Program-made: the position numbers and the translations under genes
DNA from: an uncultured Mycoplasma sp.
GTDB lineage: Bacteria; Bacillota_I; Bacilli_A; Mycoplasmatales; Metamycoplasmataceae
Length of the DNA stretch: 38,514 nt
Assembly (NCBI GenBank): GCA_947039385.1
Contig: CAMQYR010000002.1
Coordinates: 1-38,514, forward strand
Reading direction: 5' to 3'
Notes under the pieces: model-generated
Seen by the model: only the letters and a program-made list of their open reading frames with translations
Told to the model about the DNA's origin: nothing
The model's database searches: none
In this document: one piece after another, positions 28,620 through 35,675 of the stretch
Numbering within the stretch: position 1 is the stretch's first letter
Layout: each line of letters opens with the position of its first letter

Positions 28620-29612
28620 ATGGTTTCATTAATTACACCAATATACTCAAATAAAATTCATAAGAATTTTTTTAGTTCTATTTTAGAACAAACTGATAAA
28701 AATTTTCAAATAATAATTTTTACAAATAATATTTCAATTGATTTAACAAATTGTATGAAAGAGATTGAAGCATTTAATTCAATAAAAATGCAAGTTATTT
28801 TTACAACCAAAAGATTAGGGTTTAATGAAGTTATAATAAGAGGAATAAAATTATCAACTGGTTCTCATGCTATAATAGCAAATTCAAGTGAGAGTTATTT
28901 AAATAGTTTCGTTGGTGATTTAAATAATATTATTGAAAAACATAAAGATGTTGATATTTTGGAATTTAAAGCTTCTATAAAAGGGTTTGAAAGATGAATC
29001 CCTTTAGAGAGATGCGATTTGAAACAAGATTATTCATTTAATATTTTGGAATATCCAAAAATTGTTGTATATGCACAACCATTTATTTCTAACAAAATTT
29101 TTAAAGTTTCTTTAGCTCTCTTTGCAAGTAAACAAATGTCATATATAGAAACTAAAACGCATTTAACAATTGCATTTCTATATATGATGCTTTTAGAAGC
29201 CAAAACATATGTGTATGTTAATAAGATTTTTGCTAATATTATTATTGAAGAGAGCGACATACCTAACTATATGTTTTTTTATAAAGAATGAAAAAAAATT
29301 AGACAAAAATATGAAATTGAAAAAAGGTTGTTGCAGGAAATTGAATATGCACAAATGTTTTATATAGAAATAATAATACCTATGTTATATTCAAGTAACA
29401 AATTAACCAAAGTTATATTTATTTACTCAAACTCAAATAAAGTTTTACAAACAAAAATATATGATAAGAATAAAAATATTAGAGAACAAGAAGCTAGTTC
29501 ATTCATTTCAACAAATAAGTATATGTTGTTAAATTTATTGGAGACAGAATATTTAAGTAAATCACATCCACCTAATGAGTGGCCCAAAATGTTAAAACTG
29601 TTTAAAGAGTAA
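28620..29612 (+). CDS. GT2-like glycosyltransferase-fold protein, apparently degenerate, 330 aa
   Basis: MVSLITPIYSNKIHKNFFSSILEQTDKNFQIIIFTNN...KLSTGSHAIIANSSESYLNSF: GT-A layout, but the usual DxD region reads NSSES. Fragments joined by TGA=Trp. Confidence 0.65.
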
Positions 29613-30286
29613 TGAAAAAAATTAATCAACCTGCAGGTTTTTGAATAAGGATTTTATCAATATTAATTGATACAATAATATTCTCAATTATTTCTATTTC
29701 TTTATCATTAATAGCTATTAATAAAAAAGGTACAAAATTTGAGATAATACCATGAGCATATTACGTTTGAATGATATTGACAATAATTGAAATAATAATT
29801 TTATTTATTTTAATTCCAATTTTATTTAATGGAAAAACAATTGGAATGTTTTGTACACAAATAGAAATTTATTCTCTCACAAAAGAACCAATGTGATTAG
29901 TGGTTTTGAGAAGAAATAAATTTTTTTCATTTTTATGAATATTTGCTATATTGGTGTCAATGAGCTTTATTAGTCCACAATTAGCACAAAAGATGATTCT
30001 TATTTCAAATAAAGAAAAACTAGTAGGTAGTGAAGAATTAATTTCTCTTAATACATTGGAAATGGCGCTAATATCAATACCGACAACAACATCGAGCATT
30101 ATTGTTTTTATAAATATTTTTATGACATTATCAATGGGAATGAATAAGGATGCATTGAGCATTAATGATAGAATATCTCTAACTCAAATCGTATATACGA
30201 AAAAAACAATTACTATTTTTGATGAACAAAACAAAATAATTTTAAAAGAAGAAGTTAAAAACAAGAATATTGTTTGAAAGGAATAA
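29612..30286 (+). CDS. RDD family membrane protein, ~224 aa
   Basis: MKKINQPAGFWIRILSILIDTIIFSIISISLSLIAI...NGKTIGMFCTQIEI; TAATG overlap with the upstream gene. Confidence 0.75.
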
Positions 30287-30287
30287 A

Positions 30288-32465
30288 ATGAACAAAGAAG
30301 TTGGAATAAATGCAAGTGATGGAATATATGGAAATTTAAACAAAGAACAGAAGGCAGCAATTTTAAATATTGATTCACCATTAAGAATTATTGCTGGGGC
30401 AGGATCTGGTAAAACTGGTGTTTTAACAAAAAAAATAGTGTATTTAATCAGAAAAATTAATATCAAACCAGAAAGAATAATGGCATTAACATTTACTAAT
30501 AAAGCAGCTAATGAAATGAAATCAAGAGTTATTGATATTATTGGAGAAAAAGGTTTGGATGTAGTAATATTAACTTTTCATGCGCTTTGTTCAAAATTTT
30601 TAAAACGTGAAATTCATAATATAGGCTATTATAATAAATTTATTATTCTCGATTCTTCAGATCAACGCTTCATATTAAGAAATATATATAAAGATTTAGA
30701 AATATCAAGCTCTATAATATCATACGCAACAATTTTAAGCTATATTTCAAAATCAAAAACATCGCTTAGTACTCCTGCAGATGAAAAAAAAATCGCTATT
30801 AGTGACACCGACTTATTAAAATGTGAAGTTTACAAAAGATATGATGAAGAAGTTAAAAAGAAAAAATATCTTGATTTTGATGATTTATTAATATTTACTA
30901 ATCAAATTTTAGTTGATTTTCCAGAAATAGCAGATTATTGGAAAAAACAATTTGACTATATTTTAGTTGATGAGTTTCAAGATACATCCATTCTTCAATA
31001 TAACATAATAAAAAATATATCAAATAAAAAAAATATAACTATTGTTGGTGATCCAGATCAAACTATTTATTCTTGAAGGGGGGCTGATATTAATTCAATC
31101 AATAACTTCCACCAAGATTTTCCAAATACAACCACAATTACAATGGATACCAATTATCGTTCTACAAAGAAAATTTTAGATGCAGCAAATAGATTGATTC
31201 GTTCTAACAAAAATAGGATGCCTAAATCTCTTAATACTTTTAATGAAGTGGGCGAGGGAATTGAATTTCATTATGCTTACTCTCAAGAAGAAGAAGCTAG
31301 ATGAGTTGTGAATAAGATTAATGAGTTGAAAAGAAATAAAATACAATTAAAAGACATTGCCATTTTTTATAGATCAAATTTTTATTCCAGATTAATTGAA
31401 AGTGCCTTACTAGGAGAAGCTATAAATCATAAAATTTTTGGTGGACAGAAATTTTATGAATTATCAGAAATAAAAGATGCCATTTCTTTCTTGTGAACTA
31501 TATCAAAAGATACACCCCAATTACATTTTCATAGAATATTAAATATACCTTCTAGAAAAATAGGTCCAGCAACAGAAGCAAAATTACTTAGTTTTGCTAA
31601 TGAGAAAAAATTAAACCTCTATGAAGCACTAATAGAGAATTATAAAGTGCTACCAGTGTCAAAAGAAATAAAAGCAAAAATTGTAGAATTTTTAAATGAG
31701 ATAAGAAGACATAAACGAATTATTGAAAAAAGAACAATATCCATAAGCAAAACTTTGGAATCATTTTTAAATGCTATTAAATATTTAAAAGCAATTAAAG
31801 AATCTTCGAATGAAAATGATACAAAATATGAAAATATTATGGAACTATTAAAAGCTATTGATACATGAGAAACAAATAATCCAAATTTGGGTCTTGAAGA
31901 TTATTTGGAAGAGATTAAATTGATTAATATGTCTTTTGATCTTGGTGAAAATGCAATAAACTATATAACTTTAATGACAATACATGCATCAAAAGGGTTA
32001 GAATTTAAAAATGTATTTCTAATAGGATTAAATGAAGATATTTTTCCTTCTAACAAAGTAAACGAGATAGATGACGATGATTTAAGAGAAGAAAAAATGG
32101 AGGAGGAAAGAAGACTTGCTTATGTTGCAATTACAAGGGCGAAAGAAAGATTATTTGTTTCTGGAGCTCGCGGAAGTAGCTTTATTTCTAATATAGTTCA
32201 ACAAAAATTGCCCTCTCGGTTTATTTCTGAAATGGGTTTAGATGTTTCGGCTTTTGTTAGTGATTTAGTCATAATTAAAAATTTTAAAAACGATATAAAG
32301 ATTAATAAAAATTATGTTATAGGAGATGTAGTATCTCACATAACATTTGGTAAAGGAATTGTTTTAGATTTAGACGGCGATAAGATTACAATTAAATTCA
32401 ATAATGATACAGTTGGTGTTAAACAGTTTATAAAAAACCACAAATCAATTGAAAGGGTTGAATAA
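30288..32465 (+). CDS. pcrA: UvrD/PcrA-type ATP-dependent DNA helicase, 725 aa
   Basis: LNKEQKAAILNIDSPLRIIAGAGSGKTGVLTKKI, ALTFTNKAANEMKSR, VDEFQDTSILQYNI, GDPDQTIYSWRGADI, TIHASKGLEFKNVFLIG, EEERRLAYVAITRAKERLF. Confidence 0.96.
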
Positions 32466-32466
32466 A

Positions 32467-33972
32467 ATGTCTACTCTTTTATTATTATTGCTAATAATAT
32501 TTCCTATATTTTGTCTAGTTTTTATTTCTAATGTTTTGTTCAGTTTTCTAAAAAAAGTTAAAATAAAATCAAGTGCCGGATTTTTTTTGCTTGATATTGA
32601 TTTAAAAAATAATAGATTAAGAAAAACCAATCTTCTTAATAAAGAAGAAAAAAGTCAAGAGGTTGAATATTTAAGTGAAGGTTGAATGGATATAAATATT
32701 TTCTTATCTAGTATTTCTAAAACTAATGAAGAAAAGTTTTTAATAGCTATTAATGCTATAACAAAAAATAGTGATTATGTAAAATTTATTATTAAAAATG
32801 ATAGTTTAATAGAGCCGGCTTACTCTGTTCAGTGGCTTGTTGAATTATTTAAAACAAATGATTTAGTAAGTGCAACTGTGCGATGAGACTATATTAAAAA
32901 TATACCTAAAAATTTAACAATAATTAGCAAGGAAGAATTATTCAAAAATCAAAATAAATATAAATCTTTTATTGCATTTAATTTAAAAACAAATGATCAA
33001 AATGAATTTCAAGTATTTATGACAATATTATGTGCAATTTTAAAACTTAAAAATCTTGAGTTTTTAATTTCCAAAAGTATTGTTACATTAATTATATATG
33101 GAGAAAATAATGAAGAAATAGAAAAGAAAATAAATTATGTTCTATCAAAAATTAAAAAAGGAAAAACGGAAAAAGAACTTTTACTTTATTATGATGGTTT
33201 AGGAATTGTTGAAAGTGATGGAGTCACTAATATCAATGATTTAGCAAAAATAATGAATCGAATTTATTTTTCATTAATCAAATCAAAACAACTAAAAAAA
33301 CCATTTTTATTTAACATTAAAAACATATTTTTTAATGAATTTGAAGAATTTAAAGAAAATTATGCAATTCTCAATAATATAATTAAATCAAAAAATATTC
33401 CAACGATAAAAACTCCAATCATAGAATTCAAATCAAAAAATATAATTGCTAATTACATTAAACCAATTCCTAAATATTTAGACAATTTTTGAACAAATAT
33501 GATAATTCAAAATAAAAATATTTTGCCTAATTTGGATGACTTTTATTTTGAAAAAATAATTAATTCATTAGATCAATATGATCAATATTTTATAGATATA
33601 AATGATTATATGATTATACAAAATATAGAAAAAATTAAGCATCATATAAGTTTAATCTTTATAATTCAATTTAATGAACTAGCAAATATTAATAACTTAG
33701 AACTAATTGTTTCTAACTTAAAAGCAAACAATATAAAATTTGGAATAAAAATATCAAATATTGCATCAGAAGTTATTACGCTTATAGAATTTATAAAGCC
33801 ACACATTATTATAATTAGAGAAGAATTAATTAATACCTCTGATTTAACAAAATTTTTAAATTTAAAACAATTAATTACTTTATCTAAAAAAAATCCAGTT
33901 ACTTTAATTTTTGAGAATCCAGCAAAATCTGAATTCTCAAAAAACACAATAAATTATTACTATAATAAATAA
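32467..33972 (+). CDS. Membrane-anchored protein resembling a degenerate GGDEF-EAL protein, 501 aa
   Basis: N-terminal TM (MSTLLLLLLIIFPIFCLVFISNVLFSFL); middle KYKSFIAFNLKTNDQNEFQ...IVTLIIYGENNEEIEKKINYVLSKIKK is GGDEF-like; C-terminal half has the EAL strand/helix order (LIFIIQFNELANINNLELIVSNLKANNIKFGIKISNIASEVITLIEFIKPHIIIIREELI) without catalytic motifs. Confidence 0.5.
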
Positions 33973-33976
33973 TTTA

Positions 33977-35605
33977 TTAAATAAAGTCTTTCAAATCTTT
34001 TTTTATTATGTAATTAACTTTATGAATATATTTTTTAGCAACATTCTTTTTGCTTCATATACTAGTTATTGTGTTTTCAAGTCTTATATAAATAATAATT
34101 TTTCTATTAATGTAATTGAATTTTATAAAAAATTCAACTCCACTTTTAAGTACTATTTTTGCAATTAAATTTTCATGTAAATCATTACTAATTTTAAATC
34201 TAGTCACATTATCAATTTGAAATCATTCATTTGTTCGTGAATTTTGAATGTTATCTAACCACAAATTAAATTTATATAAGTCATCATTATAAATTAGAGT
34301 GTATGTTTTATAATCGCCATACATTTTTGATAAGATATTTTTTTGGGAATAAATATTTAAACGTTGTGTTTCATAATAATTTATCATTTCTAAAATTTTT
34401 ATTATTAGATGGTGAAAACCAAATTCAATTATTTTGTTTTCACCAAATATAAATTGACCATCTTGATTTCAATAAAACAACAAATATTTATTTTTTACAA
34501 TTTGAAGATTCTCAGTTACAAATAGTTCTAAATTATATTTATTTATTAAATTTTTTATAGATTGGATTGGAGGTATATCGGTTCCTATGTAAGAGTTAGA
34601 AAAATTATTATAATTAGTATTAATTTCTGTTAAAAAGAAGTTTAAAAACATTAATGTTATATCATTGGAATCTAAGTAAATGACTTGTTTTCCATTGAGA
34701 ATAAACAATATTAATTCTGATCCATTTTTTGTTGTACAAATGAGTATATGACATTTATTTTTCATTGCAAATGCAATATCTTTTCGGTAAAAATTTGTAT
34801 AAGTTTTTGGTGTTTTAGTCTTTTTTTTATAAATATTTCCTTTGTTTATATTGTTATTTATCACATAATTAAAGTCCATATTACCCAATATTTTTTTTAA
34901 AATTTTAGTAACACCATCATTATAATTTGAAACACCAATTTTGATTTTTCGTCTATCATGTTTTCTATTTGAAAGTGAAAGTATTTTAGATATATAATCA
35001 CTTATAATTTTATTATTTGATAGAAATTGTACCTTTGCAGTTCTGGATTGAACTGAGAAAATATTATAATTATCCATTTCTAATTTAATTGTTTCTAAAA
35101 TATTTTTTTTAATATTTAGTCCATTTTTATCAATAAAAAATACATTAAAAACTTCATCATTATATATATTTTTTTCTATTATAATACTCCCATCCAACTC
35201 TAATTTTTTAACAGTTCTACAAATAAATTTTTTGTCATAACCATTATATAAATTAAAAGCTGTTGATGTAATTCCTTCAAATTCAAAGACATCCGCAATA
35301 TCCTTTAGAAATGATTTAATTTCCGGAGACCCATCACTGGAAATTAAAATATCAATTTTAGATTTATCAGAATTATTGTCAACCATTATTTTTGCAAAAG
35401 AATGAGCTATTAATTTTACAGTTAATTTATTAAGTGTTCCATAACTTACTCCAATTCTAGCGATAATTTTTTTTTCATCAAAAAATAGCTTTTCAAAAAA
35501 TTTTTTTTCATCATTAGTACCAATAATTTTAGAAAGTTTTTTCAATAACTTTTTATCATCATCGAATTCTTTTTTTCATTTACTTAGTATTTCGTTATTA
35601 TCCAT
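33977..35605 (-). CDS. Phosphohexomutase (PMM/PGM)-fold pseudoenzyme, 542 aa
   Basis: ATG 35603-35605, TAA 33977-33979, TGA=Trp. YGTLNKLTVKLIAHSFAKIMVDNNSDKSKIDILISSDGSPEIKSFLKDIADVFEFEGI and C-terminal WNQDGQFIFGENKIIEFGFHHLIIKILEMINYYETQRLNIYSQ follow the alpha-D-phosphohexomutase layout; active-site motifs are replaced. Confidence 0.65.
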
Positions 35606-35675
35606 ATTTATTAATTTTATCAATTTAAATTGATAAAACAACAATCATTTAACTTTTATTGTTTATAATTAAAAA

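Follow-up and report, generated by a model that had tools for sequence, protein, structure and literature searches.

The window, that is, the whole 38,514-nt stretch of DNA analysed here, contains an intact open reading frame on the forward strand (32467–33972). Read with genetic code 4, it extends from an ATG at 32467 to a TAA at 33970–33972 and encodes 501 amino acids, with three tryptophans specified by TGA codons. A Shine-Dalgarno-like AAAGGG precedes the ATG, which follows the stop codon of pcrA (TAA, 32463–32465) after a gap of 1 nt, and the 3′ end of the gene lies 4 nt short of a convergent gene. The protein belongs to the NCBIfam family NF045955 ('MHO_4530 family protein'), with a full-length score of 143.4 bits where 125 is the cut-off (residues 5–499 on positions 2–515 of the 515-position profile). 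This entry provides a name alone, without fold, domain or function. Combined with an AlphaFold2 model, Foldseek and hhalign, the match points to a transmembrane (TM)-anchored, degenerate PAS-GGDEF-EAL protein.

The upstream gene pcrA (30288–32465, forward strand) encodes a UvrD/Rep-type helicase (TIGR01073, E 4e-186, under the equivalog cut-off). It is found immediately 5′ of the MHO_4530-family gene in 76 of the 77 loci whose flanks were read, the one exception being truncated by a contig end. In M. hominis, the locus numbers place MHO_4530 just after pcrA (MHO_4520), and an expression array lists the two genes (PMC5533444). Upstream of pcrA, and on the same strand, lie genes for a weak GT2-like glycosyltransferase (28620–29612; E 7.8e-5, just below the cut-off) and an RDD membrane protein (29612–30286); both occur between asnS and pcrA in most of the loci read in the GTDB family of this genome (f1, 135 genomes searched). 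The product of the convergent neighbour (33977–35644, reverse strand) is similar to the putative phospho-sugar mutases of the MAG5620 family (E 5.8e-24, under the cut-off). Its sequence has no SHNP-type catalytic loop, and it is apparently a second dead enzyme kept beside the MHO_4530-family gene.

Predicted fold and domain layout

The AlphaFold2 model of the full-length protein, built with the window protein and four relatives (five sequences; pLDDT 64.7, pTM 0.36), begins with one helix at residues 2–28 (32470–32550, forward strand), in agreement with the N-terminal TM segment of the original prediction. The helix is followed in the sequence by KKVKIK, which by the positive-inside rule would place the C-terminus in the cytoplasm. 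A PAS-like domain comes next (residues ~37–144; 32575–32898, forward strand), as indicated by the order of its secondary-structure elements (from strand 37–45 to strand 133–144), Foldseek matches and a weak profile match. The degenerate GGDEF-like domain (residues ~163–276; 32953–33294, forward strand), which has no GGDEF motif, is suggested by the model, Foldseek and an alignment via the proS-linked family described below, and shows the succession β-α-β-β-α-β in the model (β165–173, α178–192, β197–202, β205–211, α215–231 and β242–249). The remainder of the protein is predicted from hhalign and from Foldseek on a separate C-terminal model to form a degenerate EAL-like barrel (residues ~286–501; 33322–33969, forward strand), with barrel-like strands and helices from about strand 313 to strand 479–482. 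The barrel is short at its C-terminal end, where the QG motif and the last helix are missing. A GGDEF-like segment followed by elements in EAL-barrel order, as first read from the letters alone, is also the order seen in the model; the barrel order assigned to the last ~170 residues holds, whereas the length does not, the EAL-like part spanning ~200–215 residues.

A Foldseek search of 350,542 PDB chains with the full-length model shows PAS-GGDEF-EAL or GGDEF-EAL proteins in all of the top 17 places, the best match being the PAS-GGDEF-EAL protein PA0861 (5xgb, E 1.1e-10) and others including DosP, MorA and LapD. Global TM-scores of these matches are low (0.25–0.30), as expected when a model leaves the orientation of domains unsettled. 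Modelled separately, the C-terminal 226 residues reach a pTM of 0.67, and all of the best 50 PDB matches listed for this model are EAL domains or proteins, with LapD first among them (E 2.7e-8, TM-score of 0.64 over the query). Such a result is specific, given how many barrels of other kinds are deposited in the PDB. The structural similarity to EAL and GGDEF folds that the original prediction called for is thus clear with both models, and the C-terminal domain is, by its predicted fold, an EAL-type barrel. FixL PAS and PAS-GGDEF-EAL structures are among the best Foldseek matches, and Pfam detects no PAS domain in the window protein. The GGDEF half is suggested by the order of elements in the model and by the Foldseek matches to GGDEF-EAL proteins; its own profile score is not significant. 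Assignment of the PAS and GGDEF domains, both predicted, draws on the model together with the full-length alignment to the proS-linked family.

Homology to EAL proteins and gene order

The window protein has no match in a Pfam search and so does not reach the gathering score of PF00563. Neither the protein nor the family profile retrieves anything significant from PDB sequences, the best profile match, PLK4 kinase (E 0.08), being a chance one. Among 34 family members, no Pfam family scores better or recurs more often than EAL, which is matched by just two members (best E 0.0064). When profiles are compared by hhalign, the family (71 sequences) aligns with the EAL proteins of f2, a family taken to be Spiroplasma-like (93.8%, E 1.8e-7), and at 58% with GGDEF-EAL proteins of the bona fide kind (columns 185–531 on 218–590, E 1e-4), against at most 0.9% for decoys made of unrelated clusters from the same neighbourhoods. 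The C-terminal half taken separately gives 94.6% with the f2 EAL proteins (E 6.5e-8; top decoy 2.1%). The PAS/GGDEF half taken separately gives 32.6% at best, with the proS-linked family, and about 0 elsewhere; the first part of the PAS-like region shows a weak profile match to the PAS-like region of that family.

The proS-linked family consists of degenerate TM-PAS-GGDEF-EAL proteins from another order of the same class (f11/f16; for example, L151 and L149). The mycoplasma family aligns with 30 of its sequences over nearly the full length (95.1%, E 3.4e-8, columns 47–516 on 57–538), and the proS-linked family in turn aligns with bona fide GGDEF-EAL proteins (E 1.2e-12). The gap is bridged by proteins encoded 3′ of pcrA in two other families of the mycoplasma order, one in f6 (E 2.3e-9 over the full length; best Pfam match EAL, E 0.0016) and one in f28 (E 9e-10; best Pfam match EAL, E 0.019). 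A profile combining all these proteins and run over 999 open reading frames retrieves, down to E 0.004, only EAL proteins and the pcrA-adjacent L185 (f27), a positional candidate after pcrA that is matched by this combined profile alone (E 7e-8). Another positional candidate after pcrA (L184, f7, 516 aa) received no confirmation by profile. Two f3 genomes retrieved with the family profile (E 0.002–0.008) were discarded; in the one examined, the matched open reading frame is proS, a chance match.

Gene order connects the same proteins. In all 30 f11 loci, proS lies directly 3′ of the proS-linked family gene, with gaps of 0–41 nt. The pair formed by an EAL-like gene and proS is also present in f4 (L152 and L153), f28 displays the order pcrA, a gene for a 568-aa protein, proS, and seven deep-branching f1 loci (L042, L045, L046, L054, L055, L058 and L175) have the MHO_4530-family gene between pcrA and proS. 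We take proS at the EAL-like loci to encode prolyl-tRNA synthetase, judging from its sequence and from the cluster it falls into. Gene position and sequence agree, which argues for common descent of the MHO_4530 and proS-linked families. The proS linkage has been lost in most f1 loci read, and the f2 EAL gene adjoins mgtE, with pcrA elsewhere in the f2 genomes, so that not every lineage of the order has the gene linked to pcrA. Because the pcrA link is absent from f2 and the proS link is lost in most of f1, these linkages may reflect inherited gene order rather than function. One f5 genome of 1.4 Mb (G223) has pcrA-like sequence at four sites, and at three of these it is interrupted by in-frame TAA or TAG stops, as in decaying duplicates.

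Membership of the window protein in the EAL superfamily by ancestry is supported by these sequence comparisons, and the GGDEF-EAL reading originally proposed is supported in both fold and ancestry by Foldseek, profile–profile alignment and synteny.

Active-site residues, conservation and second messengers

The functional residues of bona fide GGDEF-EAL proteins were mapped onto the family by two routes, directly and via the proS-linked family, which agree at all positions aligned in both except for a one-residue shift at the EAL motif. E483, the Glu of 'AEGVE' (33913–33915, forward strand), is the sole canonical EAL active-site residue retained from the catalytic and metal-binding set E(AL), N, E, DD, K, E and Q, and is present in 58 of 71 sequences. 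At the other positions, E(AL) is replaced by a variable K/N/T/S or hydrophobic residue, N by D/K, DD by K/Y-I and K by I/V. GGDEF, EALxR and DDFG strings occur in none of the 71 family sequences, and ExLxR occurs in one, in a chance-like manner. The earlier statement that no GGDEF, EAL or metal-ligand motifs remain is therefore accurate for the motifs, across all 71 sequences, but not for the canonical residues, given the conservation of E483. The same positions are lost in the proS-linked family of the other order, so that loss of catalysis is likely ancestral and not a by-product of mycoplasma genome reduction. The aligned sequences thus suggest that it predates the mycoplasmas, independent loss in the two families being a conceivable alternative.

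The family HMM finds a homologue in 128 of the 135 f1 genomes, nearly always in single copy, and in the other seven a homologue lies directly 3′ of pcrA (E 3e-8 to 1e-35); the MHO_4530-family gene is therefore present in 135 of 135 genomes. Its identity falls to 15–20% across genera, and dN/dS values calculated pairwise among close relatives range from 0.045 to 0.108. The gene is thus under purifying selection (dN/dS about 0.05–0.11). Orthologue conservation, proposed as a check at the outset, proves complete among the genomes searched, and 'relic', the label first given to the gene, is misleading in view of this distribution and of the dN/dS values. The curated cut-off of NF045955 is passed in just 105 of the 135 gene-bearing f1 genomes, leaving about one-fifth of true members unnamed. 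Two further observations each concern one genome: two matches in G031 (C1:18171-19703 and 683363-684895) have identical scores and probably represent an assembly duplication, and the gene at G110:C1:577035-578638 seems broken by in-frame stops or a frameshift, possibly as a recent pseudogene.

The genome from which the window derives (94% complete) shows no match to the EAL family and none to GGDEF (PF00990). It encodes the c-di-AMP synthase DAC (E 7e-39) and a complete, separate GdpP (E 1e-177). At 94% completeness, absence from this genome alone is no proof, and the family-wide absence of clear GGDEF proteins is the stronger evidence. PF00990 exceeds its cut-off in one of the 135 f1 genomes, where the match is GdpP. 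It gives weak matches in nine, and the four of these that were inspected as possible GGDEF cyclases are all GdpP. The lack of detectable c-di-GMP synthesis agrees with published accounts in which mycoplasmas have retained c-di-AMP and not c-di-GMP (PMC10333796, PMC11535214); literature searches on c-di-GMP in Tenericutes or Spiroplasma yielded almost nothing except PMC11535214. The hint of c-di-GMP reception contained in the original prediction is not sustained: retention of the gene does not imply c-di-GMP signalling, because the genome yielded no GGDEF protein and ExLxR, the c-di-GMP-binding motif, is gone.

Proposed role and comparison with known systems

We consider it probable that the MHO_4530-family protein is a catalytically dead, membrane-anchored PAS-GGDEF-EAL pseudo-enzyme acting as a c-di-GMP-independent sensor or scaffold. 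It is kept under strong selection without sign of messenger synthesis, and so for another job. The gene would have been inherited vertically from a pseudo-enzyme lineage already located beside proS, whose c-di-GMP chemistry had probably been lost before the mycoplasma order arose. By analogy with characterized degenerate proteins, the single N-terminal helix would tether a cytoplasmic protein to the membrane, the PAS and GGDEF-like modules may dimerise and respond to some ligand or cue, and output could pass through the surface of the EAL-like barrel, binding protein or RNA as in CsrD, YdiV or LapD. According to this proposal, c-di-GMP is predicted to be neither made nor degraded, and presumably not bound. 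CsrD in E. coli and YdiV are examples of degenerate GGDEF-EAL proteins whose action does not involve c-di-GMP (PMC10333796). PcrA and ProS are obvious candidate partners. We regard as evenly balanced the further proposal that the messenger was lost from this pseudo-enzyme lineage before the mycoplasma order arose, and that the protein has since persisted, near-core and in single copy, in an entirely different, c-di-GMP-free role, for example, as a membrane tether for a factor of translation or of RNA or DNA processing (PcrA, ProS), or as a sensor of a new ligand.

It is unlikely that the protein is instead a cyclic-dinucleotide receptor, recognizing imported or host-derived c-di-GMP, or the cell's own c-di-AMP, through a degenerate EAL/GGDEF pocket in the manner of LapD and FimX. 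Its fold is nearest to those two non-catalytic receptors, the genome encodes a c-di-AMP synthase and GdpP, and the predicted mouth of the barrel carries an (I)(Y/F)EN motif beside one conserved Glu. However, ExLxR, reported to decide whether an EAL receptor binds c-di-GMP (PMC10333796), is absent apart from the single chance-like match, the genome has no GGDEF match and the positions of the canonical pocket vary between species. An active phosphodiesterase, or another hydrolase with altered chemistry centred on E483, is very improbable: this residue is among the most conserved polar ones and aligns with the catalytic Glu by both routes, but the other catalytic and metal positions (E, N, E, DD and K) are lost together with the QG motif and the last helix, and the homologous family of the other order has Thr or Ser at the position of E483. 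The protein could also be an unrelated α/β membrane protein whose likeness to EAL is a modelling artefact, given a five-sequence model of moderate confidence, the lack of a Pfam match and the f3 proS profile match (E ~1e-3), which illustrates that weak HMM matches arise by chance. We give this little credence, as three independent lines agree, namely, the fold search with two models, profile homology with decoys and proS/pcrA synteny, and the synteny partners include proteins that Pfam recognizes as EAL. That the protein has split off from a GdpP-type ancestor (TM-PAS-degenerate GGDEF-DHH) and participates in c-di-AMP breakdown was rejected as extremely improbable, for although GdpP has the TM-PAS-GGDEF order in common and occurs in f1 genomes, hhalign against GdpP yields no more than noise (≤1.9%), the match of the C-terminal half is to EAL and not to DHH, with no DHH/DHHA1 match, and the complete GdpP of this genome is a separate protein.

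These results provide a fold and an ancestry, on the evidence of model and profiles, for a hypothetical protein of all 135 f1 genomes searched, including M. hominis MHO_4530. Interpreted as a c-di-GMP-independent pseudo-enzyme, it suggests that a c-di-GMP architecture has outlived c-di-GMP under strong selection, and hence that a PAS-GGDEF-EAL scaffold may serve functions without a messenger that matter enough to withstand genome reduction. Degenerate PAS-GGDEF-EAL pseudo-enzymes are already known; what distinguishes this one is its near-core status without detectable c-di-GMP synthesis.

Among known systems, CsrD, an RNase E specificity factor of E. coli, is likewise membrane-anchored with degenerate GGDEF and EAL domains, and is c-di-GMP-independent (PMC10333796). 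The f28 bridging protein shows a weak match to its NCBIfam model (E 0.005). CsrD differs in its N-terminal GAPES4-HAMP region and in acting on CsrB/C RNAs, so that the likeness is one of kind rather than of demonstrated orthology. LapD and FimX, degenerate EAL receptors for c-di-GMP, are the closest solved structures to the C-terminal domain among the matches listed; neither the ExLxR binding motif nor a source of c-di-GMP was found here. The proS-linked family (f11/f16) shares the architecture, near-full-length homology, loss of catalytic residues and a 3′ proS as in the deep-branching f1 loci. It departs from the window protein in having an EAL domain visible to Pfam (28.3 bits for L151, just under the cut-off of 31.3), often Asn/Asp-Glu at the GGDEF site, and Thr or Ser in place of E483.

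The f2 proteins are homologous in their EAL half (E 6.5e-8), and their active site is mostly lost as well. They differ in having several predicted TM segments, a stronger Pfam EAL match and an mgtE rather than a pcrA/proS locus, and are probably a separate lineage. The f2 loci include L136 (5921-9381), which encodes a multi-TM protein with a Pfam-significant, largely degenerate EAL domain and adjoins mgtE. f2 thus represents a second EAL-like lineage in mollicutes, poorly covered in the literature found. Finally, U1 of Ca. Oceanoplasma callogorgiae, which has a TM segment and an EAL match and is among the top ten transcribed genes, was regarded by its authors as a hint of c-di-GMP use (PMC11535214). 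In these features, this mollicute gene recalls the MHO_4530 family, and a simpler reading may apply to it, since an EAL-like protein of this order can be an inherited one without catalytic activity.
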